Shown here: positions 14,466 through 26,944 of the stretch, one piece after another
How the letters are laid out: each line of letters starts with the position of its first letter
Position numbering within the stretch: position 1 is the first letter of the stretch
Source: Candidatus Poribacteria bacterium
Lineage (GTDB): Bacteria; Poribacteria; WGA-4E; WGA-3G
Assembly (NCBI GenBank): GCA_022827625.1
Contig: JAJEIE010000033.1
Span: forward strand, 248,001 to 312,000
DNA: 64,000 bases
Direction: 5' to 3'
Notes under the pieces: model-generated
Told to the model about the DNA's origin: nothing
Seen by the model: only the letters and a program-made list of their open reading frames with translations
Databases searched by the model: none
Made by a program: the position numbers and the translations under genes

Positions 14466-15017
14466 TCACAACTTTTGATTGGGCAGAGTTGTTGTGAATT
14501 CTTCAATAGTTTGTGCTTGTATTGCTACGCGGCGGAGCTGCTTGAGCTGCTGCAGATCGTCAATACTCTCCAAGGTAGCCTTTAGGTCTTGCGTAGACTT
14601 CGGTTGGAATCGAAGTTCAAGAGCTTCAAGGATACCTTCAATGGTACTCTCTTTTACGCCATCGCGAATGCCTTGTTGGTGTACCTCTCTGAGATTTTCA
14701 ATAGGTTCCTTGGCGGCATGTTCCTGGAGAATCTTCACAATCATTGGTGCAATAGGGCGGAGTTTTTCCAGTAACTCATCATCATAAATTGAGAGAAAGA
14801 TTCCCTTGCTAACGTCCATAGGGAATCCCTCCACTTGTTCAACACCATCAAGCGCGTAGCGAACGCGCGCGAAGGGACCGTATCGGTGGCCTTTGTGATA
14901 AGGCTCTTCCACCCGTAAAAATTCGATGGAATCGACATTAGGTAAACGTCCTTTCACATCAACTGTCTTATATGTAAGCTCAAGCCTGTCAGCGGGATTC
15001 ATTTTATGTATTTTCAT
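14466..15017 (-). CDS. Unrecognised 183-residue protein, possible partner of the ADP-ribosyltransferase-like gene
   Basis: 183 residues. The N-terminal part (MKIHKMNPADRLELTYKTVD... to FLSIYDDELLEKLRP) is not recognised. The C-terminal part (about 125-180: GVKESTIEGILEALELRFQP, LKATLESIDDLQQLKQLRRV and TIEEFTTTL) resembles the helical tail seen at the end of many Rpn/DUF4351-type and related small proteins, with no nuclease core in front. Start: ATG with AGGAG 8 nt upstream. It follows the 15050-15625 gene by 32 bp on the same strand, so the two form a probable operon. It could be an antitoxin or immunity partner; that is inference from position only. Confidence 0.65.
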   Translation of the reverse strand: MKIHKMNPADRLELTYKTVDVKGRLPNVDSIEFLRVEEPYHKGHRYGPFARVRYALDGVEQVEGFPMDVSKGIFLSIYDDELLEKLRPIAPMIVKILQEHAAKEPIENLREVHQQGIRDGVKESTIEGILEALELRFQPKSTQDLKATLESIDDLQQLKQLRRVAIQAQTIEEFTTTLPNQKL

Positions 15018-15049
15018 GAAAGTGACTCCTAATTATGAAAGATGCCCCT

Positions 15050-15625
15050 CTAATAAACATCAAAGCGATTCTGGACACAATTTGCGGGAATCCTACCGTA
15101 AGCAAGGAGTTCTGCATCTCGGAGCGCGCGGACCAAGGTCTCTAATTCGAGTGTCAAGTTAGGCGGGCGCGGGGTGCCTCCATTTGAGGGAGGCTGCATC
15201 GCTTGTTGTACCAGAAAATGCCCCATATTTCTTGGGTCAACAACACCGAGCAAGAATTCTTGTGAGCCATCGTGCTGGTAGGGAGGTCCCATAGCAGGAG
15301 GCAGTAGTATTTTCGCGATTTCCTTCACCGGGTCCAGAATTGTTATCTCGTCTGGCAGCGGATCTGGCACCTCAATTTCATAGACATAGGCAGGATTGTT
15401 TAGTGTCGGGATCACCGTACTATTTGACACTGCATAGTCGCGTGCCACTCCGTATGAGCGCGTCAGAGAAATAAAAGGGGTGTTGGCAGTGCCTCTGGAA
15501 ATATGATGCATCATCCGAGCAGCCGTTAGCGTCGATTCGGGAGTTCTGGCGGTAAACCCACTTTCCGCTGGATTGTTGAGATACCAATAAGTGTTAATGC
15601 CTGCCCCTCGGTAAAATATAGGCAT
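15050..15625 (-). CDS. Putative ADP-ribosyltransferase-fold protein (toxin-like)
   Basis: 191 residues. MPIFYRGAGIN gives the Y-R-G start of R-S-E type ADP-ribosyltransferases (R6). TPFISLTRSYGVARDYA (about 49-65) matches the FIS-T-S strand and the following helix. YVYEIEVPD and SQEFLLGVVDPRNM supply the later strands and a candidate catalytic Glu in the Q-E position. If active it would transfer ADP-ribose from NAD+ to a protein or nucleic acid target. No secretion signal is visible, so it would act in the cytoplasm. Start: ATG with AAAAGGAACGCA upstream. It is first in a two-gene unit and lies between two decayed copies of one R-M gene. Alternative: a non-enzymatic relative with the same fold. 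Confidence 0.6.
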   Translation of the reverse strand: MPIFYRGAGINTYWYLNNPAESGFTARTPESTLTAARMMHHISRGTANTPFISLTRSYGVARDYAVSNSTVIPTLNNPAYVYEIEVPDPLPDEITILDPVKEIAKILLPPAMGPPYQHDGSQEFLLGVVDPRNMGHFLVQQAMQPPSNGGTPRPPNLTLELETLVRALRDAELLAYGRIPANCVQNRFDVY

Positions 15626-15801: not shown

Positions 15802-15825
15802 GGGATTAGGAAATCCCTCCTACAG
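15802..15825 (-). repeat. REP-like hairpin, GGGATT-stem type
   Basis: GGGATTAGGAAATCCC followed by TCCTACAG, plus-strand tail. A decayed copy (GGGATTGGGAAATCAAGAG) lies just to its left at 15781. It overlaps the last codons of the R-M pseudogene region. Confidence 0.65.
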
Positions 15826-17273
15826 AACAGAAGGTAACTTTTCGATAATATCTACTGTCTCTAAGCTAACGGTGATGACCTTGCCTATCAACTTGACGAT
15901 GTACTGTGGGTCATCGGCACGGTTGGGATCGTTGACGATGCCGCTCCGTTTGTCTGTCTTTACACGATACTGGTCTATCACCCACTCCAATGCGGAACGG
16001 GTGCCGAGTCGGTAATCAAAGACTTGTGGCGGAATGCCGTCGATGGTGAGGAAATTGTTGTAGACGATTTGGGTTTTGTCTCTGGAGAGTTTCATCTTCT
16101 CGACGCGCCAATCAAGTGGGAGGTCGGGGTTCTGGATGAACTTGAGCTTGCTGAATTCGGGTTGAGATTCATAGTGAACGTGGATTTCTGCGAGTCGTTC
16201 GCCAGCCTTTGCGAAGCTCCAGAAGTCCTTAGCAAAAGGGATGTGGGGCAGATCGCGTTTGAGGTTCGCCTCGTATTTTTCTCGATAGTCGGGGTGATGT
16301 AAGAGTCCGTAGTTGTAGTGGAAGATGTCCCACTTGGTGATGGTGTCGTCTTTATAGTGGGTTCGGAACTCGATTAATGCCCAATCGGTGATGTTTTCGC
16401 ATGCCATCAAACGCCACACCCTCAAGAAAGCCGTTATTCGTTACAAAAGCGACAACCCCTTCTTCTCCAATCCTATCCGATGCCCATCGAATCGCTTTTA
16501 CATACGGATCGGAGAGTTTATTTCTCAGCGTTGCTTTAGAATCTCTGGCGTACGTGTCCGCAACCAACTTGTCCATCGTCTCATATTTCCGGTTCTTGTT
16601 GTTGTCGTTTTCGTTGACCTGCCCCATATTATAGGGTGGGTTGCCGATAACGATGAACATATCGGATTCTTTCTGCTTTTCAACGTGTGCGGTATTGTCA
16701 GGGGTGAAAAGATTGTGTATTGTTTTGGCGTTCGGTTTCGATGAGTGCGGTTAGTTTTTCACCGAGTTCTGGCACGATCTCTCGGAATTCGGTGACGGCG
16801 GTATGCCACGCGGCGATGTTCTCCTCCTGATAGGCGAAGAAGGTCTGTAGCACGTGGACGAGGTTCCGCGGTTCGCGGATGTCGAGGTCGAGTTGGAGCT
16901 CACCGTGTTGGTAGAGGAGTGCGTGGGTTGGCGACTGCACGACGATGTTCTTGGACGGATAGCCTGCAGCAAATTTCTTGTCTGCTTCTGTGTAAAGATT
17001 GTCCTGTGTATCTTTTGCTTCCCAATGTCCAAAGGGTAGGTTGAAGGTATCGACGACTTCGCCATCGGGTGTGATGCGTCTTTTTTCTGGTGTGTAGTGT
17101 GTCTTTTCACAGAGGAGCGTGAGGTTTGCTTGGCGCGAGTAGTGTTGGAGGAGGTTTTGGAATGCTGCTCGGACGGTGCCTTCGTTCTGTTCGCCAAGCC
17201 GTTCATAGGTTTCAAGTTCGGCGTAGTATTGTTTGATGGGTTTGTGGGTGGGTCTAATATTGAGATGGGGCAT
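15820..17273 (-). pseudogene. Type IIG/ISP-like restriction-modification methylase, broken by two deletions
   Basis: Three pieces in different frames line up in the order of one large enzyme. Piece 1 (17273-16698) is the N-terminal nuclease-side region: MPHLNIRPTHKPIKQYYAEL, LPFGHWEAKDTQDNLYTEAD, FAAGYPSKNIVVQSP. Piece 2 (about 16720-16352) has LFTPDNTAHVEKQKESD and the N6-adenine methylase motif IV NPPYN, then WASDRIGEEGVVAFVTNN and AFDGMRKH. Piece 3 (16425-15820) is the C-terminal target-recognition side: ENITDWALIEFRTHY, TKWDIFHYNYGLLHHPDYR, FDYRLGTRSALEWVIDQYRV. From memory, intact relatives are near 1000 residues; here the middle and the part after motif IV are missing. Both joins shift the frame, so no functional enzyme is expected. 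Confidence 0.85.
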
Positions 17274-18001: not shown

Positions 18002-21000
18002 TTAATCGGATTCGTCCGGATCATACACATTTTCATAATAGTATACAACCGTTTTCAGATCCCACCAATGTTTCTCTTTAAAACAGATGCGTATCATTTC
18101 ACTATTCGATTTCAAAAGGACTTGGATGCATATCTTTTCAGCATTGGGTTCCAAGTAGATTTGAGGGTTATCTGAATTCTTCAGCGCGTTATAGAAAGCC
18201 TCTCGGGTTTTTCGGTCTTTCTTCACAAACTCTTTATACTTTGCCGCGCACTCTGGACACAGTGCCAGATATTGTGCTTCATGCTCTTTGAAAAAGTGAC
18301 CTTTTCCAAATGCCTCGACTGCTTCAAAGTAATCCTCATCGCTATTCCGCTTTTTGAACGGCATACCCTTTGAACATATCTGACACAGCATTCTGTTTTC
18401 GTCCGTTGTCGTATACTGTTCCCTAAGATAAGTCCTTGGGTCAATAGTGTTGCGGGTTGACCGAATTCTCCACGCCCGAGTTTCATATTCTTTTTCCTCA
18501 GTCTCATCAAGTTCTATAATAAGTAATTCACTACGCCGATTTCGGGTGCGAAGATTTTTTAGTAACTCGTCCGGTGTTTTTCCTTGCTCTTTAAAAAAAT
18601 CTGAGGCCAACTTGGCTTCATCCGCCGAACTGAATCCGATTTCCGCAGCATATTGATTTCGTCTCCTTTTTTCGTATTCCTCATGAATGTTTTCTAACCT
18701 TTGTTGTTTTGTAGTCTTGCCAAATTCAATCGCTTCAAGCCATGCTTGCTCGGCATCGTAGGGAAAATCTCCAGGGAGGCACTCTCTTAAAGCGTCGCAG
18801 GGACGTACAAAAGAAATGGTGTCTCCATTCTTTTGTGGAACCCATTTTGAATTCCTTAATTCGTGTACAAGAGTAGAATGTCCCTCATTGAGAGGATTAG
18901 ATTGATTCCAACAGAACCGTGCTTTTAGGCAAGATTCCGGAAGAAAACACATCGTTTTCCAAAACAATTTTGACTTAACAATCGAAGGATTAGTAAGAAG
19001 AAGCTGGAATTCAGGGATCCTATAATCTTCATCTATCCCTGTATCACTTCTCCAATGGCCTGATCCTTGCCCAAGATGACCGCTCCATTGGGGATGATTT
19101 TCTGGAATTATCTGCCCTTTAGCCTCTAGTTGTGTTCTTGCTCCTAACGCCTCCGCGAACTTGCCAATCTTTTTTGGATCTATGTCAGATTGTTCGTAAT
19201 CTAATGAAAAATAAGGATCAACATTTTCTTCATCTATAAATTCCCAGTATTCCTCATCCTCATAATAGACATTCAGACCTGTCTCAAGATAAGGTGAATC
19301 CAGGAAAATGAGAGATGTAGACCAGTTGCCGCCAGAAGTATTGAAGATATTGTATTCATTAAACAAAATTCCATTATTGGGATTGTTCTCCACAAAGGAA
19401 ATGAATCTCTTCATATCTTTCTCGTGAAGTTTAGAGGGTATTATAGTGTCTGGGTCCTCGTATCGCTGTCTCAAAATTGCTTTAATTCGCGCTTCTTCAT
19501 TCACTTCGGAAACGCCAATATCTTCAAGAAAGTTCCGAGCTTTTTTCTGCTGATTTTTGTTTTTTCCGGATGAATAGACACTTTTAACAACATAATGAAA
19601 ATTTATATCTTGTGTGTCTCCTTCTTGAAATTCATACTCCACGTCATCAATAGGAAAATAGCACTCACTACCGATTCTGTATTCACCATCACTACAACGA
19701 ACAATACGAAGGTCTGAACAGAGATAATCATCATCACTAAGGAAGGCGTATAGCTGTTGGTGCCATTCGTCAGATTTGCTTTTCAACCATTCTGTTGCCT
19801 TTTCATGGGTATCCAGCTTCTCTATCAAATTCTCAGTTGTCCAACGAGAAATATCCAGCATGGATAAGAAATTGTCTTCCGGTTGGTTAATTTGCCGCGG
19901 GTTAGCAATCCATAAACGCTGAGAATTATCTTTCCAGAGAAGTGTTGCCAGATCTTTGTCGTCAATCAGATCAGATAATGTCCTTGGACCTCTATAGCAC
20001 TCTGAGGCTGGAGCATGCCCTCCCTGTTTCATGGGCACCAATTTTTTCTGATTAAATTCTGTGGTTAGCTGCTCTTGGATCGGAAGGTAAAAAGGAGACA
20101 GATTATTCGTATTATTAGGTAGTGTCGCGAGGAATTCTACATCCAACAACCCTCGATCTCGAATAACATGCATTGACTCAGCAACTAAATCTGCAATGTG
20201 GTCGCGTAGTTCGTCATTGGCTGGAGTATCTCGAACACTGTCCCGAGCGACAGTTGATGCAAATGGGGCATGCAAGTGAAATCTTAGTTTAGAGGTTTCC
20301 TTTACTGCAGGAAAATAGATAGAGACCTGTCCAGGATTCAGCGGGATGATCTTCCATCCCCCACCTTCAGATTTATCCATACCAAAAGCAATCGCGATTT
20401 GACAACACTTAGGGCTATCGTCCTCGTCCTGAACATCAACATCCTTCGTAAATCGAAGATACTGGTTAGACTCAGGAGTTTGACCTCCAGGAGGCCTAAC
20501 ATAAATTTCAATTCGGTTTTCATCATTCACAAAACCTCTTCGTTCTAAAAAACCTACTGTTGAATCAGGTAGACGATATTCTATCTTGCGAATGTTATTC
20601 AGGAATAGTAACGTATTTTCGTTTAGTTCCCGGAGATTCTTTTCTATTTCAGCCATCGCTTTTTCAGCAGATTTTTTGGGATTGTCAAAAGGAAAAACAA
20701 AACGAGTTTTCCCTTCACCAAGTGCACCTGGAAACAACTTTTCCGTATCAGGTACAACTATATCCCGAATACGAAAATGAAACTCGCTCGATTCAATCTC
20801 TGGTGTGGCAGTGTAAGCAAATACCGCCTTGAAACCGATACCAAACTTACCAATGGCAGTAGGATCATCTTTTTTTGTGCTAAAACCTATACTTGTTATC
20901 GCTTCTACGTCTTTTAGAGAAAAAAGTCGATCTCCATTATGTTCAAATACCGCGCTATCTTTGTTTAGTAGGAACCGAACCTCTGATGCTCCTGCATCCT

Positions 21001-21631
21001 CAGCGTTTTGGAGGAGTTCATAGATAAAATGCGCATCGTCCGGATACAAGTCAGTGAGCAAATGCTTAATGCCCTCTTCAAAATTGTTTTCTTTGTTTGC
21101 TTCTACCCATTTTTTGCGCTTTTCGCGTAATTCGTGAAGATTTTGGTTCTGTGCCAGGTTTTCATTTAATTCTTCTCTAAAACCGAATAACCCACCTCGG
21201 TATACAAGCACAACTTCCTTACCAACCCTCATAAATAAATGATTATGATCAAAAGCTTGCAGCTCACCGCGAATTACATGACCTCTACGCGTAACAATGG
21301 CTATATTATTCGCAACAACTGATTCCAGTTTATCGCCATCAACACAAAAATAATTTTGTGCAGTGCTTTTTCGGTTGAGCCTGAGATCCTTTACCGGACC
21401 AAACATTTTGATGTGCGGTTTCACATCTGGCATCTTTTCAAGGGGAAAAGCAAAAAGAATATCCTCTTTATGCAGAAGATGACGTTTACCTTCTTTGTCA
21501 ACACCGTGTACTCTATTATGGATATGAGTCTTGATATCCATTAAATCAACTTTGCGTTCGTGTAAGTAAAATCGGATAGGTGTATCAAAATTCTGTGTCA
21601 GTAGTAAATCAGCGTCCCAATCATGATTCAT
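18002..21631 (-). CDS. Sacsin/Hsp90-type ATPase with N-terminal Hfq/Sm-like domain
   Basis: 1209 residues. I start it at 21631 (MNHDWDADLL) because AAAGGAA precedes it and homology with the 25205-25750 protein begins there; an upstream in-frame start would overlap the helicase gene. About 1-150 is shared with that protein, including ILFAFPLEKMPDVKPHIK and the Hfq-like IVTRRGHVIRGELQAFD...LVYRGGLFGF (about 111-151). At 200-280 is a GHKL/sacsin ATPase: YELLQNAEDAGA (N box, N209, D212) and AIGKFGIGFKAVFAY (G box). Near the C-terminus, LCQICSKG and LALCPECAAKYKEF form a two-CxxC zinc-binding site like a degenerate HNH. It lies 49 bp after the helicase gene, so they are probably one operon. Such ATPases paired with helicases are typical of defence loci; an antiviral role is inferred. 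Confidence 0.8.
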   Translation of the reverse strand: MNHDWDADLLLTQNFDTPIRFYLHERKVDLMDIKTHIHNRVHGVDKEGKRHLLHKEDILFAFPLEKMPDVKPHIKMFGPVKDLRLNRKSTAQNYFCVDGDKLESVVANNIAIVTRRGHVIRGELQAFDHNHLFMRVGKEVVLVYRGGLFGFREELNENLAQNQNLHELREKRKKWVEANKENNFEEGIKHLLTDLYPDDAHFIYELLQNAEDAGASEVRFLLNKDSAVFEHNGDRLFSLKDVEAITSIGFSTKKDDPTAIGKFGIGFKAVFAYTATPEIESSEFHFRIRDIVVPDTEKLFPGALGEGKTRFVFPFDNPKKSAEKAMAEIEKNLRELNENTLLFLNNIRKIEYRLPDSTVGFLERRGFVNDENRIEIYVRPPGGQTPESNQYLRFTKDVDVQDEDDSPKCCQIAIAFGMDKSEGGGWKIIPLNPGQVSIYFPAVKETSKLRFHLHAPFASTVARDSVRDTPANDELRDHIADLVAESMHVIRDRGLLDVEFLATLPNNTNNLSPFYLPIQEQLTTEFNQKKLVPMKQGGHAPASECYRGPRTLSDLIDDKDLATLLWKDNSQRLWIANPRQINQPEDNFLSMLDISRWTTENLIEKLDTHEKATEWLKSKSDEWHQQLYAFLSDDDYLCSDLRIVRCSDGEYRIGSECYFPIDDVEYEFQEGDTQDINFHYVVKSVYSSGKNKNQQKKARNFLEDIGVSEVNEEARIKAILRQRYEDPDTIIPSKLHEKDMKRFISFVENNPNNGILFNEYNIFNTSGGNWSTSLIFLDSPYLETGLNVYYEDEEYWEFIDEENVDPYFSLDYEQSDIDPKKIGKFAEALGARTQLEAKGQIIPENHPQWSGHLGQGSGHWRSDTGIDEDYRIPEFQLLLTNPSIVKSKLFWKTMCFLPESCLKARFCWNQSNPLNEGHSTLVHELRNSKWVPQKNGDTISFVRPCDALRECLPGDFPYDAEQAWLEAIEFGKTTKQQRLENIHEEYEKRRRNQYAAEIGFSSADEAKLASDFFKEQGKTPDELLKNLRTRNRRSELLIIELDETEEKEYETRAWRIRSTRNTIDPRTYLREQYTTTDENRMLCQICSKGMPFKKRNSDEDYFEAVEAFGKGHFFKEHEAQYLALCPECAAKYKEFVKKDRKTREAFYNALKNSDNPQIYLEPNAEKICIQVLLKSNSEMIRICFKEKHWWDLKTVVYYYENVYDPDESD

Positions 21632-21680
21632 TATGAAATTCCTTTGGATTAAATTTCCAAATCCATTTATACAACTATAA

Positions 21681-24600
21681 TTAGAGGAAAGGATCAGCAA
21701 ATACTTCCAAAATCCCATAAGCCACAAGTTCTGTTGTAACATCGGCTTTTGCTGCTGCTTCATCAAATTCCTCGGCACGCCGTCGATAATCTACCTCGGC
21801 GTTGGCAAGCTCGCTACGTCGCATGCGTTGAATGTTTGCATTCGTCGCCTGCGCGATTCTATCCTCAAGGAGTTTAACGCGTTTCTGATGACTGGTTGAC
21901 AGACTTTCTTTACGGTAACTTGCTAACGCCCGCGTATGCTCCTGATGCTTAGAGCGTGCTTCAGCCCATAGCTGCTGTTGCACATTTTCTAACGCTTCCT
22001 GTTCAGTAAGGACTGGATTTTCCTGTATCTCATTATCCACTGCCCTTTCAAGTAAGTAGTTAAGGTGTGGTGTCAACTCACCTGATATAGCAATCGGCTT
22101 AAGTACCAAATGTTCTCGAATTCCGAGGAATCGCCATTGATAGATAGCAAATTCATATCTCCCAGCGGGAACCTTATTTGTTCTGACCTTGAGCATAGCA
22201 ACAACTTCTTGATCGGTTTTTAATGCTTCAGCAGCCTGTTTCACCAACGGATGTGTCGGCATGATAAATACAGCATCAGAATGGTGAGCAGCACAATCGG
22301 CTTCAAAGGTTATAGATAGATGCTGATCGGATCCCTTTAACCATCTCTCCCACTCCCGATAAACGCGAGTATTCTCCCTCGAAAATTGCTGAAAGTCACC
22401 TAATAAGGCATTCCGGGCAGATTCGGAAAGCCGAAGGGTCTTGAGAGGTTTCTCACCAAGGATGAATTCTTGCTCGCTTCCAATCTGCTTTGCCAGATAG
22501 CGCGTAACCAGCCGCTGTATAGATTCAGGCGATAGCCAGAAACTGGAGGCATCCGCCACCTCTTTCTCCATTCTATCTTCAGGAAAACGGAGTCCAAACA
22601 GATCTAATTGTTGTTCTTCAAGGGCTTCCTGCATCTTTATCTTTGCAATTTTGCCAACAGCCAGTGCTTCCAATTTGGTTCTACGCGCTTCTGGTGGTAA
22701 TTCGTAATTCTGGACGATGTCACGTAACTCGGTCGTAATTTCACTAAGGATTTCCTCGTTACCACCCAACGCACTCTCAAATATACCGATGCGACGTAAG
22801 CATCGTTCATAGATATCGGCATCAACGGTTCCCGGGGTAATCAGATTGATGATGGTTACACTTTCGCTCTTTTGACCTCTCCGGTCAATCCGACCGATAC
22901 GTTGCTCAATTTTCATCGGATTCCACGGTAGGTCGTAGTTGACGATACAGTCACAGAATTGGTAGTCTAACCCTTCACACCCAACTTCTGAAAAAAGCAT
23001 CAAGTCAACGCTATCGCTGTCCGATCGTGGTTTTTCAAACCGATTGCGGAGTTCTAAACGTTCTCCATCCGGCACCCCACCGTGAATGAGTCCGACGCGA
23101 AAACCGTCGGCTATAAGGTGTTTGTGCAGATAGGCGAGTGTATGGCGGAAGCTGCTAAAAATCATCATCTTGTTATTGGAAAGACATTGCCTATCCTGAA
23201 CAATTTTTCGGAGTGCTGCTAACTTTAAATCCTCTGCATCAAGATTTTTTGCCTTTTCAAGCAGCACCTGGATCTGTTCACGAATTTGTGTAACGATTTC
23301 TGAAGAAGGCATGGCATCAACGGCGTCAGCTTCTGCCCATTCAAGTTCGTCAAGGTGGCGATGCAAAATATCTTCAAGGAGTGGTTCGAGTCCATGTAGA
23401 CAACTTGCCAATTGTCGGCGGAGTGTGGTCATCATGAAGCCAACTCCCTGACTACCGTGTAAGCTGCGGAATATTTCCGACTGGGTTTCAAGCAATGCCT
23501 CATGGAGTTCGGATTCCTCCGTCGCCAATTCTACTTCCACAGTGTGTGAACGACGGATTGTAAATTCACCAATATCACGACGACGGGTTCTATTGATAAT
23601 TCCTGAAAAAGTGTGGAGTGCTTCCATATCCATGATGAGTTGAACCCGATCTTCTGGAGTGATGTTTTTTCTACCCAAATGCTTTCTAATCCGTATGAAT
23701 TCGGGATTATCCTTTAGGATTGATTGCCCCCAGGAAGTTGACGCAGCTTGGTCAAGTGTTTCCGTTGCGATTTGTATCCATCCCCTCTCTTGCGCACGCG
23801 CAGCATCAACGGCTTGATTAATGAAAGGATTCGGCTTCGCTATATGATTAAAACTCTCCTCATCCAAAATCAGATCAGGACGCAAAACATTCAGGAGAAC
23901 AAACAGGTCATGACTACCGAGTTGGATAGGCGTAGCTGTGAGAAAAACAGCTGCATCCGCATTTTCACAGAAAAACCGAACTGCTTCGTGATTGGCTGTC
24001 CCCTGATTTCGGATATGATGTGCTTCGTCAACAATGACCAGATCAAAGCGCGGCGGTGGATCCAGATCCAGAAGCCCTTTACCATTTTTTTTCTTGCGTT
24101 TCTTTCCGGGACCAAAAAGAAGATCGTTATTCAACAACGAATAGGGGAGAATCACTTTTTTGTATTGTTCCGGCCATTCACCGTCCAGATGCGTCTCTCT
24201 AATGCAGTGTTGCAATTTCTTTCCGTCGAGATGCTCAAAATTTTCGTCGAACCGTTTCATCTCCCGCTGCCATTTTTGCTCGGCTACTAAGGGGCGCGGA
24301 CATATAATGAGGACAGATTCAACATCAGTTCGCGCTTGTAATTCCCTCAAAATCAATCCAGCCTCAATTGTCTTTCCTACACCAACACTATCAGCGATAA
24401 GCAACCTCGGCAGGTCTGCTTTGATGAATTTCAGGACGGGTCGATATTGGTACGGAATAAAGTCAACCCGCGCTGCGTTGAGGGAGTATAACGCAGATAT
24501 TGCGGGATAACGAATTTGAAGGGCTGTGAGGTAAGCGTGAAATTCATCACACGAAAGACTTTGAAACTGATCGGTTTGAACCTCAATTTGCAGCTGAGAA

Positions 24601-24761
24601 GGATAAAAGGTCTGAATACTTCCATTAACAAAAACGTTGATGCGGCTTTCAGGGGACCCAGGTAAGACTGCGACAACAGCTCCGCGAGTCGTCGGGTCCG
24701 CTTTTAGCAGGACAATTTGACCTGGAACAAATTCTTGCAAAGGATTCGGTGTGTTATTCAT
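21681..24761 (-). CDS. SNF2/RapA-type DEAH helicase
   Basis: 1026 residues. The N-terminal 60 residues (FVPGQIVLLKADPTTRGAVV...) look like a small beta-barrel. Helicase motifs follow: Q-motif-like FIPYQYRPVL (101-110), Walker A ADSVGVGKTIEAGL (K130), DEAHHIRN (245-252) and TATPIQ (275-280). The second lobe has MMIFSSFRHTLAYL, LFSEVGCEGLDYQ and WNPMKIEQRIGRIDRRGQ with the arginine fingers. The C-terminal about 350 residues are helical. It resembles stand-alone SNF2 helicases such as DrmD of DISARM, but no other DISARM gene is present. Start: ATG with AAAGG upstream. Presumed role: ATP-driven translocation or remodelling on DNA, together with the downstream ATPase. Confidence 0.85.
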   Translation of the reverse strand: MNNTPNPLQEFVPGQIVLLKADPTTRGAVVAVLPGSPESRINVFVNGSIQTFYPSQLQIEVQTDQFQSLSCDEFHAYLTALQIRYPAISALYSLNAARVDFIPYQYRPVLKFIKADLPRLLIADSVGVGKTIEAGLILRELQARTDVESVLIICPRPLVAEQKWQREMKRFDENFEHLDGKKLQHCIRETHLDGEWPEQYKKVILPYSLLNNDLLFGPGKKRKKKNGKGLLDLDPPPRFDLVIVDEAHHIRNQGTANHEAVRFFCENADAAVFLTATPIQLGSHDLFVLLNVLRPDLILDEESFNHIAKPNPFINQAVDAARAQERGWIQIATETLDQAASTSWGQSILKDNPEFIRIRKHLGRKNITPEDRVQLIMDMEALHTFSGIINRTRRRDIGEFTIRRSHTVEVELATEESELHEALLETQSEIFRSLHGSQGVGFMMTTLRRQLASCLHGLEPLLEDILHRHLDELEWAEADAVDAMPSSEIVTQIREQIQVLLEKAKNLDAEDLKLAALRKIVQDRQCLSNNKMMIFSSFRHTLAYLHKHLIADGFRVGLIHGGVPDGERLELRNRFEKPRSDSDSVDLMLFSEVGCEGLDYQFCDCIVNYDLPWNPMKIEQRIGRIDRRGQKSESVTIINLITPGTVDADIYERCLRRIGIFESALGGNEEILSEITTELRDIVQNYELPPEARRTKLEALAVGKIAKIKMQEALEEQQLDLFGLRFPEDRMEKEVADASSFWLSPESIQRLVTRYLAKQIGSEQEFILGEKPLKTLRLSESARNALLGDFQQFSRENTRVYREWERWLKGSDQHLSITFEADCAAHHSDAVFIMPTHPLVKQAAEALKTDQEVVAMLKVRTNKVPAGRYEFAIYQWRFLGIREHLVLKPIAISGELTPHLNYLLERAVDNEIQENPVLTEQEALENVQQQLWAEARSKHQEHTRALASYRKESLSTSHQKRVKLLEDRIAQATNANIQRMRRSELANAEVDYRRRAEEFDEAAAKADVTTELVAYGILEVFADPFL

Positions 24762-24942
24762 ACTTTACCTTTGTCCTTTCCTTGTAATTTGAAAGTTTTA
24801 CTCACCTAATAATAGGTTAGGGCTATTTATGGCGAAACCCATAATTAAGTGCACACTGAAAAGTTAGCGAGGTTAGGAAACCTCGCCAGCGTCGGTAGGG
24901 CTTTCTCGTTTACTATTTTCAAAATGTATACTTATTTATCGG

Positions 24943-25062
24943 ATCCACCATAGTTTTAAGGTTTTTTTGCGCGTTTGAGTGGGCGAGTCGCGAACGGGAG
25001 CTCGCTCCTACAGCGAAGAGTCGGGATTGGGAAATCCCTCCTACAGAAGAACTATGGTGGAT
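24943..25062. repeat. 13-bp perfect inverted repeat flanking REP-like hairpins
   Basis: The arms ATCCACCATAGTT and AACTATGGTGGAT enclose 94 bp with two hairpins of the CCTAC-tailed kind. In RNA the whole would fold into a branched hairpin upstream of the helicase start. Confidence 0.6.
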
Positions 25063-25105
25063 GCCGTAATTACTTACACATCCTCCGAATTCCGAAACGT
25101 CTATG

Positions 25106-25131
25106 GCACAGGCTAACAGCCTATGCTACAA
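25106..25131 (-). repeat. REP-like hairpin, AGGCT-stem type
   Basis: Third copy of AGGCTAACAGCCTATGCTAC in the window, same orientation as the copies at 6888 and 11530. Confidence 0.65.
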
Positions 25132-25204
25132 GTCTGGTAAATATAACATTATTTTTAGAATTCACCATAAATGCCCCTAATAATAGGTAGTGGGGTCTTG
25201 ACAC

Positions 25205-25750
25205 TTATAAAGTCTCGTCAGATTGCGTTTCAATCGTGAAATCAAGCAAGCCGTGTCGGTACACAATCACCAGCTGCCCCCCGATTCGCATGTAAAGAAC
25301 ATATTTGTCGAAATGGTGAACCGAACCTATCAAGACGTGTCCTGACCGGGTAACAATGTTCACATTGGATTTGTTCGCCTTCGCTTGCTTAAGAAGTTCG
25401 TCATCCACGTGATACCGATCTGCTCTGGTTTGAATCGGTTGAAGATTCTCTGCTCTCAACGACTTTCTTATTTTTACATAGGGTTTCAGGTCCGGCATCT
25501 TCTCTTTAGGAAAAGCAAACAAAACGTCCAATTTCGCCATCTTCACCCGTTCACGGTTGGTATCAATCGCCCATATTATATACGCGTTCGTTCTGATTTT
25601 GGACATATCGCATATACCTGTATAAGTGACGAAGCGGACGGGTTGTGCAAAATGTTGGCTTAATATCTCGTTAGCGTTCCAATTATCGCTATTTTCCTTT
25701 GATTGTTGAGATTCCGGTTGCTGTTCGTCCAAATCTAATACTGTTGCCAT
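25205..25750 (-). CDS. Small protein with Hfq/Sm-like domain, related to the ATPase N-terminus
   Basis: 181 residues. About 1-25 are polar and Gln-rich. From 22 on it matches the N-terminus of the sacsin-type ATPase: WNANEILSQHF, DVLFAFPKEKMPDLKPYVK (75-93), then IVTRSGHVLIGSVHHFDKYV and VIVYRHGLLDF (about 132-171). The last part follows the Sm1/Sm2 pattern of Hfq (G-x(n)-FDxFV...VYKHAI). It is expected to bind RNA or to form rings with its relatives; this is inferred. Start: ATG after AGGAAATATGAGGT. It begins 21 bp after the SLBB export gene on the same strand, so it is probably cotranscribed with it, and sits 443 bp before the helicase gene. Confidence 0.7.
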   Translation of the reverse strand: MATVLDLDEQQPESQQSKENSDNWNANEILSQHFAQPVRFVTYTGICDMSKIRTNAYIIWAIDTNRERVKMAKLDVLFAFPKEKMPDLKPYVKIRKSLRAENLQPIQTRADRYHVDDELLKQAKANKSNVNIVTRSGHVLIGSVHHFDKYVLYMRIGGQLVIVYRHGLLDFTIETQSDETL

Positions 25751-25771: not shown

Positions 25772-26944
25772 TCACCCCGACAACTGGATTAGAATGCCGA
25801 CGCCGGCGATGATGATATAGGCGAATGTGGTGACGAGGCCCCAATTCACCTCAAACTTCTTTTTTATTTCTAAAATATCTCCCGGATAGAGTAAGACCTG
25901 CTGCGGGGTTGTGCCTTCGGTGGTATTGGGTGCTAATGAGACCTCTACAGTTGTGCCGTCACGGCGGTGGATAACAACCGCTTCTCGGTTGGCTGAAACG
26001 TCGAACCCGCCGCTAAGGGCAACGGCTTGGGAAATGCTCAGGGGTCCGCGAACACGCTGTGCTGCTGGGTTGCGGACATAACCCGTCACATAGATAGGTT
26101 CAACTTTGAAGACGTTGGGAACATACAGCACATCGCCGTCTGATAGAAGAGGGGATGGCGAATTGTTCTCGGACGATTTCCAAAACTGCTCCGAACGGTT
26201 AAATTCGGTGAGTGTGCCGTCTTTTGCGACTTTTACGAGTGCTGTGAGATCTGCCTCTTGGGTGGGGCCGCCGGCGCGTGCGAGTGCCTGCGCAATGCCA
26301 ATCTCTCCACGGATAAAGAGTTTTCCGGGGGTCTGGACCTGCCCCTGCACTTCAATCACACTCAAAGGCATGACGAACACGAGATCGTTCACACCGACGC
26401 GGATATCTGTGTAAGCACGGTTTGTTGAGAGGTCGTAGGTTTCGACCCTTTGTGCGGTGTCGGTACGGATGAGCTGCACGCCTTGACGGTCGGCATTTTC
26501 CGCCATACCCCCGGCGAGTGCGATGGCACGGTATAAACCGATGTCCGTTTCAGGGGAGATGGGGTAACGTCCCGGTGTCTTTACTGCACCACCCACAAAA
26601 ACGCCGTGTTCCTGTAAGACGGGAGACACCATAACGATAGGATTGCGGACATGATTATCCCTGACGAGAAACTCGCGAATCAGATGGTTGACCGCCATCA
26701 CCGTCTGTCCAGCAACATCAAAGTCGCTACCGAAATAGTTAATCTTTCCGTCTTCACGGACCTGTACGGAATGTGTATACTCCGGTTGCCCGACCACCGC
26801 AATGAGGAGGGTATCCCCTTTTTTAATGCGGTAGACATCGCTGAAAAGTGTGGGACTCGCAATGAAAAACAGTAAAATCGTAAACGCTTGCAAGCAACGG
26901 ACGGGAAAACGGGAAACTCGCAAGCTTCGGAAAAAATAGATCAT
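25772..26944 (-). CDS. Polysaccharide export/biosynthesis protein with SLBB domains
   Basis: 390 residues. A signal or membrane segment (about 16-36, LQAFTILLFFIASPTLF) is followed by a Poly_export domain (YRIKKGDTLLIAVVGQPEYTHSVQVREDGKINY). Three SLBB-type repeats follow: VFVGGAVKTPGRYPIS, VEVQGQVQTPGKLFIRGEIGIAQALARAGG (read around 190-220), and IYVTGYVRNPAAQRVRGPLSISQAVALSGG. The C-terminus is a membrane helix (WGLVTTFAYIIIAGVGILIQLSG). Wza-like proteins form the outer-membrane channel for capsule or exopolysaccharide export. No glycan synthesis genes are adjacent. The start codon overlaps the end of a short upstream frame (ATGA), and no strong Shine-Dalgarno is seen. Confidence 0.85.
   Translation of the reverse strand: MIYFFRSLRVSRFPVRCLQAFTILLFFIASPTLFSDVYRIKKGDTLLIAVVGQPEYTHSVQVREDGKINYFGSDFDVAGQTVMAVNHLIREFLVRDNHVRNPIVMVSPVLQEHGVFVGGAVKTPGRYPISPETDIGLYRAIALAGGMAENADRQGVQLIRTDTAQRVETYDLSTNRAYTDIRVGVNDLVFVMPLSVIEVQGQVQTPGKLFIRGEIGIAQALARAGGPTQEADLTALVKVAKDGTLTEFNRSEQFWKSSENNSPSPLLSDGDVLYVPNVFKVEPIYVTGYVRNPAAQRVRGPLSISQAVALSGGFDVSANREAVVIHRRDGTTVEVSLAPNTTEGTTPQQVLLYPGDILEIKKKFEVNWGLVTTFAYIIIAGVGILIQLSG

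Follow-up and report, generated by a model that had tools for sequence, protein, structure and literature searches.

Do a helicase of the SNF2 type and a sacsin-type ATPase, encoded side by side in a chromosomal hot spot, form an immune system of their own, and what does the small Hfq-like gene next to them contribute? The locus in question occupies positions 18,002 to 25,750 of the window, a 64,000-nucleotide stretch of a Candidatus Poribacteria bacterium of the sponge type (assembly GCA_022827625.1, contig JAJEIE010000033.1, positions 248,001 to 312,000 of the forward strand). A preliminary description of this DNA had proposed an undescribed defence system of two or three components, in which an RNA-binding-like domain is coupled to the ATPase. 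The answer that we favour, with modest rather than high confidence, is that helicase and ATPase form an undescribed defence module of two genes, a RapA/DrmD-type SNF2 translocase and an ATPase of the sacsin/Hsp90 type that ends in a dead McrA-type HNH domain, and that in Poribacteria this module is linked to RNA.

All three genes are encoded on the minus strand (Table 1). The ATPase reading frame runs from its ATG at 21631 to 18002, which leaves 49 bp (21632-21680) between it and the helicase gene. These coordinates, together with 37-38% identity between the stand-alone protein and residues 3-154 of the ATPase (E = 3e-26 in a whole-genome search), bear out the three reading frames, the short gap and the shared module of about 150 residues from which the proposal had started.

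Conservation of the helicase-ATPase pair

The helicase was found in 17 of the 85 genomes of the phylum. An ATPase gene or a remnant of one lies beside or near it in 16 of these (with one gene between them in two cases), and in the 17th the contig ends. Outside the phylum, searches made separately with the helicase and with the ATPase led to neighbouring coordinates on three rhizobial plasmids (hosts include Rhizobium sp. BT03 and Ensifer) and one Methanomethylovorans plasmid, and the pair is also present in a BRC1 contig and in contigs L123, L127 and L133 of a viral collection. The pair recurs in other genomes, in four unrelated groups, and judging by these matches it is a conserved unit across them. 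No earlier description of the pair was found in the open-licence literature.

Most of the pairs outside the phylum stand beside defence genes, as the preliminary description would lead one to expect. These include LmuA/LmuB (Lamassu), PDC-M68A/B, an MkoA-like gene (a Mokosh-like nuclease), a GajB-like (Gabija-like) helicase gene and type III restriction-modification (R-M) genes; Vsr-like and HsdR-like (type I R-M) genes were recognized by eye as further neighbours. From sequence and gene context we strongly infer that the pair functions in defence.

Instead of the Hfq module of Poribacteria, the rhizobial loci have an upstream gene of 176-184 amino acids (aa) (L137:8227-8757, L138:8223-8753, L139:8214-8768). 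Its overlap with the helicase gene is about 4 bp on two of the plasmids and 20 bp on the third. The gene has no confident family match; by eye, it has the look of a sigma-70 or helix-turn-helix protein.

The two core proteins

The helicase contains SNF2 and Helicase_C domains with intact motifs I (GVGKT), II (DEAH) and VI (QRIGRIDR). The best PADLOC model is DrmD (2e-112) and the nearest solved structure is RapA (6e-31). Against the curated NCBIfam DISARM_DrmD model (cut-off 610) it scores 313 bits, and its rhizobial and archaeal homologues score 312 and 300 bits; against the RapA equivalog model it scores 178 bits (cut-off 576). A small beta domain is found at the N-terminus (residues 1-64). 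Relatives of the BrxHII/RapA kind consist of an N-terminal Tudor domain, the helicase, a dead restriction endonuclease and a last domain (PMC12839542), and by analogy the first 64 or so residues here may be the Tudor-like part. The ratio of nonsynonymous to synonymous substitution rates (dN/dS) is 0.08-0.10 for the helicase and 0.12-0.16 for the ATPase, so both genes are under purifying selection.

In the ATPase, residues ~186-285 match the sacsin-type ATP-binding domain (PF25794, 3.5e-22; NF047352, 1e-25; sacsin in the PDB, 3e-18), and residues 161-933 match the PADLOC models of TmtA (9e-63). The N-box residues E/N/D and the GIGFK motif are invariant among 12 homologues. An AlphaFold2 model of residues 156-1209, built from 11 sequences, has a mean predicted local distance difference test (pLDDT) score of 73, and a Foldseek search with the model of the core returns Hsc82 (1.2e-9), TRAP1 and sacsin SR1 as the top matches. 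The 1209-residue protein is thus predicted to be a sacsin/Hsp90-type GHKL ATPase. For both proteins, the identities first assigned agree with the Pfam, NCBIfam and PADLOC models, and the catalytic motifs are intact.

The C-terminus of the ATPase carries a zinc site, CxxC...LCPxC, which had been singled out for closer study. A profile search identifies the region as a homologue of the EcoKMcrA HNH domain (6GHC, 9.6e-7); TagI and an HNH nuclease of CBASS rank lower among the matches. However, all ATPase homologues inspected carry other residues in place of McrA's catalytic HH (the EVHH dyad), and most of them differ at the remaining HNH positions too. An active nuclease at this end of the protein is therefore ruled out: the domain is a dead HNH, probably kept for binding or docking.

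Exchange of the ATPase and recruitment of domains

Three pairs of sister helicases are 91, 87 and 90% identical, whereas the ATPases encoded next to them are only 23, 25 and 25% identical, and a tree of the helicases mixes loci with ATPases of types A, B and C. While the helicase has stayed constant, its partner has thus been swapped. Such swapping is expected if the ATPase carries specificity or faces counter-defence, and a near-constant helicase with a freely exchanged ATPase suggests that the ATPase decides what is recognized.

Domains have also been recruited to the pair. Outside Poribacteria, the helicases of four loci (L004, L123, L127 and L133) have an N-terminal Swt1-type HEPN domain, tested with Pfam in L004 (HEPN_Swt1, 9.5e-22) and L127 (2.8e-14), and the RNxWAH motif is intact in all four. 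Fusion of HEPN with SNF2 was known before (PMC3710099). In Poribacteria, an Hfq module on or beside the ATPase takes the place of the HEPN domain on the helicase.

The probable tandem-Hfq module

The stand-alone protein scores 34.7 bits against the Pfam Hfq family PF17209 (cut-off 27), and a profile of 20 members of the module family matches Staphylococcus aureus Hfq (1KQ1) at 3.7e-11 through the C-lobe. In the stand-alone protein the C-lobe (residues ~113-174) retains the Y-R-H motif of the RNA site. By homology, the C-lobe of the shared module is certainly Hfq. The N-lobe is more distant: its comparison with the C-lobe by hhalign gives P = 3.6e-4 at a probability of 37%, and its matches to Hfq structures in the PDB are weak (E 0.34-1). 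It is probably Hfq as well, making the whole a probable tandem Hfq. The copy at the N-terminus of the ATPase belongs to the same family (profile E 1.4e-46) and reads YRGG, with the histidine of the motif replaced. Likeness to an RNA-binding domain, once ascribed to the whole module, is firm for the C-lobe and weak for the N-lobe, and the ATPase copy has lost its histidine. An AlphaFold2 model of the stand-alone protein, built from the two window copies, was not used for fold searches (pLDDT 39).

Within the phylum the module is found at the N-terminus of the ATPase (window, L038), at its C-terminus (L043, L051) or as a neighbour, so that its coupling to the ATPase, part of the original proposal, stands. 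Both ATPases with an N-terminal copy adjoin a stand-alone copy; the histidine of the motif is lost in both ATPase copies and kept in the stand-alone proteins. For these reasons the stand-alone protein is probably still a partner of the pair.

The origin of the stand-alone gene can be traced by alignment. Residues 3-176 of its product align to the C-terminus of type-B ATPases, with a short DNA match even at the gene start, and the gene is on this evidence a retained fragment, the detached tail, of an earlier type-B ATPase. A mosaic gene in five genomes joins helicase residues 1-62 to two stretches of a type-B ATPase, residues 843-900 and then 1054-1241; it is best read as an internal deletion of the operon. 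The stand-alone gene, mosaic forms included, is under purifying selection (dN/dS 0.17-0.46).

All same-genus copies of the locus occupy one chromosomal site, a hot spot that follows an SLBB gene and in which a type ISP R-M gene is usually next. At this site, the stand-alone Hfq gene is present in six of the ten loci with the helicase versus ten of the 22 without it (Fisher p = 0.70). These counts rule out an obligate three-component system: of the two or three components first envisaged, the pair stands and the obligate third does not.

The same counts raise the strongest of the alternative explanations, namely that the stand-alone gene resides in the hot spot in its own right, for instance to control the type ISP R-M enzyme or as a gene co-opted by the SLBB operon, and that its link to the pair is historical only. 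In the helicase-less hot spots that have it, the gene comes immediately behind the SLBB gene, often with the ISP gene as its next neighbour on the other side, and purifying selection on it persists there. However, the gene and its mosaic forms (helicase residues 1-62, ATPase linker and ATPase Hfq tail) derive from the helicase and ATPase genes, and a stand-alone copy adjoins each of the two ATPases with an N-terminal module. We regard independence as a plausible but somewhat doubtful explanation.

Tandem Hfq elsewhere in Poribacteria

A protein of ~316 aa with a cold-shock domain (CSD) and a tandem Hfq is encoded in nearly every genome of the phylum (L104-L109, L163), and the tandem-Hfq profile has matches in 79 of the 85 genomes. 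Ordinary short Hfq, as sought with Pfam Hfq, is nearly missing, the main candidates being frames of 96 and 135 aa in genome G002. Because the ordinary protein seems to be missing from nearly all genomes, the CSD-tandem-Hfq protein may be the working Hfq of the phylum. The genome of the window has three tandem-Hfq copies: this housekeeping one (L163, C36), the ATPase copy and the stand-alone copy.

Other proteins carry the module as well. Proteins of the GmrSD type (DUF262/DUF1524) in which a tandem Hfq at the C-terminus precedes a CSD were identified with Pfam in L054, L055, L155 and L156, and by eye in L056, L062 and L157; in L155 the Hfq-CSD unit is present twice. In L052:5063-9079, L057:5115-9389 and L060, and by eye in L058, the tandem Hfq is part of UvrD helicases that also have a GrpE-like stretch and, as an insertion, a GIY-YIG nuclease domain, an arrangement unusual in itself; S1 domains come after the tandem Hfq in L052 and L057. 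The module is also present on an RNase H-like protein (L053). In several of these fusions the Hfq part was not scored by Pfam, and was assigned by BLAST to the window protein and by the family profile. Searches of plasmids and viral contigs gave no match to the module, and those of phages a single weak match, in an unannotated 1.6-kb record. Taken as sequence relationships, these data indicate that tandem Hfq is a housekeeping family of the phylum that has been recruited onto ATPase, GmrSD-type and UvrD/GIY-YIG proteins. In the open-licence literature, no earlier description was found of Hfq in defence, of Hfq in Poribacteria or of such a tandem Hfq.

A broader reading, which we put forward as a speculation more likely wrong than right, is that Poribacteria have made a tandem-Hfq RNA chaperone into an immune module on at least four unrelated classes of protein (sacsin ATPase/SNF2, GmrSD-type, UvrD/GIY-YIG and RNase H-like exonuclease), bringing recognition of RNA, such as phage transcripts or targets guided by small RNA, into DNA-type defence. 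If so, Hfq-dependent immunity would be a class. The pair with Hfq, if its proposed role is borne out by experiment, would by itself be the first known case of an immune system that uses Hfq. The phylum, with ordinary Hfq missing from nearly all genomes examined, has spread a double Hfq onto restriction-type proteins; a role of Hfq in immunity thus becomes testable with few genes, and the rhizobial plasmids that carry the pair offer a convenient host in the laboratory.

Possible mechanism and alternatives

In the mechanism that we propose, the translocase would run along invading DNA or strip transcription or replication complexes off it, while the fast-diversifying ATPase would act as a nucleotide-driven clamp that provides recognition. 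The dead HNH domain would probably be a docking or DNA-contact surface. The tandem-Hfq module of Poribacteria would link the complex to RNA, most simply to nascent phage transcripts or to the RNA-decay machinery of the host; the involvement of RNA is conjecture. A ring built by the stand-alone protein may take up the Hfq copy of the ATPase, since the ATPase copy has lost the RNA-binding histidine and the stand-alone protein keeps it.

Several observations weigh against a two-gene defence module linked to RNA. The defence neighbourhoods are a small set of loci, judged partly by eye, and neither protein of the pair was found to have a nuclease active site. The Hfq module is restricted to Poribacteria among the loci seen, being absent from every helicase-ATPase pair outside the phylum; its N-lobe is weakly Hfq-like, with a poor AlphaFold model (pLDDT 39); and the stand-alone gene is statistically not tied to the pair.

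Some of these points would fit a DNA-directed defence in which RNA plays no part, which we consider unlikely without dismissing it. Here the pair would be a stripped-down DISARM/BREX-like or type IV-like module: translocase and GHKL clamp would recognize DNA, possibly modified, with the McrA-derived domain reading the bases, and the Hfq module would be a Poribacteria-specific oligomerization or stabilizing tag. The nearest characterized helicases, DrmD, BrxHII and DpdE, all belong to DNA-targeting systems, the McrA-type C-terminus derives from a modification-dependent nuclease, the pairs outside the phylum do without Hfq, and the ATPase's own Hfq copy lacks the histidine of the RNA site. Such a module would, however, have no detected active nuclease, and the HEPN RNase on some of the helicases and the CSD and S1 domains that accompany the module in other fusion proteins point to RNA.

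Quality control of host transcription or RNA, with a RapA-like recycler of RNA polymerase, an Hsp90-like chaperone and an Hfq-type RNA chaperone serving stalled transcription or stress recovery, would suit RapA as the best solved relative of the helicase, the chaperone nature of sacsin and Hsp90 and the housekeeping role of Hfq and CSD in the phylum, but is very improbable given the patchy distribution (17 of 85 genomes), a hot-spot site with frequent loss and degradation, carriage on plasmids and viral contigs, and defence neighbours and ATPase exchange at a constant helicase, all unlike housekeeping.

Layout of the locus and its hot spot

Table 1. Features of the locus and its surroundings, in window coordinates
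Feature	Position	Strand	Basis
Stand-alone tandem-Hfq protein, 181 aa	25205..25750	-	Pfam Hfq, Hfq structure match, YRH motif
SNF2-type translocase/helicase, RapA/DrmD-like, 1026 aa	21681..24761	-	family models, best PDB match RapA, motifs
Predicted sacsin/Hsp90-type (GHKL) ATPase, 1209 aa	18002..21631	-	family models, N-box motifs, AlphaFold2 and Foldseek
Probable tandem-Hfq module at ATPase N-terminus (aa 1-155), YRGG	21167..21631	-	identity to stand-alone gene, profile E 1.4e-46
Sacsin-type GHKL ATP-binding core of ATPase	20777..21076	-	PF25794 3.5e-22, NF047352 1e-25
Degenerate McrA-type HNH with zinc site CxxC...LCPxC, ATPase C-terminus	18248..18385	-	EcoKMcrA 6GHC 9.6e-7
SLBB/polysaccharide-export gene, fixed left border of hot spot, outside the system	25772..26944	-	homology and locus comparison
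Type ISP (IIG-like) R-M gene in three fragments, usual hot-spot neighbour	15820..17273	-	homology
Conserved gene pair (191 aa/183 aa), recurrent hot-spot cargo (also L076, L035)	14466..15625	-	locus comparison
158-bp element like a miniature inverted-repeat transposable element (MITE), 32-nt imperfect terminal inverted repeats, between Hfq gene and helicase	24924..25081	.	sequence

The two R-M wrecks reported beside the locus are a broken R-M gene in three pieces, but not two genes: by homology they belong to one type ISP gene, which at ~1030 aa is intact in many relatives at the same site and is reduced to three short frames in the window. The gene pair beyond it (14466-15017 and 15050-15625, 183 and 191 aa) is hot-spot cargo; the 191-aa protein has a weak match to DUF7587 and could be a toxin-type enzyme. 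The MITE-like element is absent from genome G056, where the Hfq gene and the helicase gene are only 20 bp apart.

Two further loci differ in the ATPase position. L076:9867-11708 encodes a 613-aa protein there, with an McrA-type zinc domain and with Ig-like repeats replacing the GHKL ATPase. L039:9756-11550 (genome G073) is a remnant locus: behind the stand-alone Hfq gene, all that is left of a type-A ATPase is its final 267 aa, and the helicase is gone.

Comparison with known systems

The helicase shares its architecture and sequence family with DrmD of class 1 DISARM (and with BrxHII and ArmA of ARMADA). Here, however, it reaches half the required score, and its partner is a sacsin-type ATPase. 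PADLOC, a check that had been recommended, assigns the helicase to DrmD and the ATPase to TmtA. The helicase-ATPase operons contain no methyltransferase, no phospholipase D-type (PLD) nuclease (DrmC) and no drmA or drmB; the ISP R-M gene is separate hot-spot cargo. The absence of further DISARM genes noted for the window extends to the genome, where no DISARM/YprA marker was detected: there is no match to PF09369 (DrmB/MZB, DUF1998), a search that was positive in eight of 14 controls. With DrmD below the cut-off and no MZB/DUF1998 protein, membership in DISARM was rejected.

RapA, the SNF2 translocase associated with RNA polymerase, is the nearest solved relative of the helicase, yet the helicase here falls below the equivalog cut-off, is patchy, lies in defence islands and is paired with an ATPase. 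The C-lobe resembles Hfq and tandem Hfq (PF17209, PF21979) in its Y-R/K-H motif, and the module is kin to the near-universal CSD-tandem-Hfq protein of the phylum; it differs from Hfq in having two lobes per chain, the N-lobe strongly diverged, and in being either joined to a defence ATPase or detached from one.

CoCoNuT, TOTE and paraMORC-HEPN join defence ATPases or helicases to RNA-binding (CSD, YTH, S1) or RNase (HEPN) domains (PMC11090510, PMC12458937, PMC3710099). They follow the same logic with different ATPase and helicase families, and no mention of Hfq was found in the open-licence literature on them. In VcSduA (Shedu), a proven antiphage protein, an N-terminal GHKL ATPase is the controlling domain (PMC12137116); there it is thought to control an active nuclease, whereas the HNH-type domain here is catalytically dead.

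Tiamat is a single-gene system. Its TmtA models match the sacsin-type GHKL region of our ATPase, but they are 1063-1782 positions long, and the match here stops at about residue 933, while the protein ends in the McrA-type zinc domain; moreover, an SNF2 helicase is encoded alongside. Judged by these comparisons, the pair is neither DISARM nor RapA, and is related to Tiamat but distinct from it.

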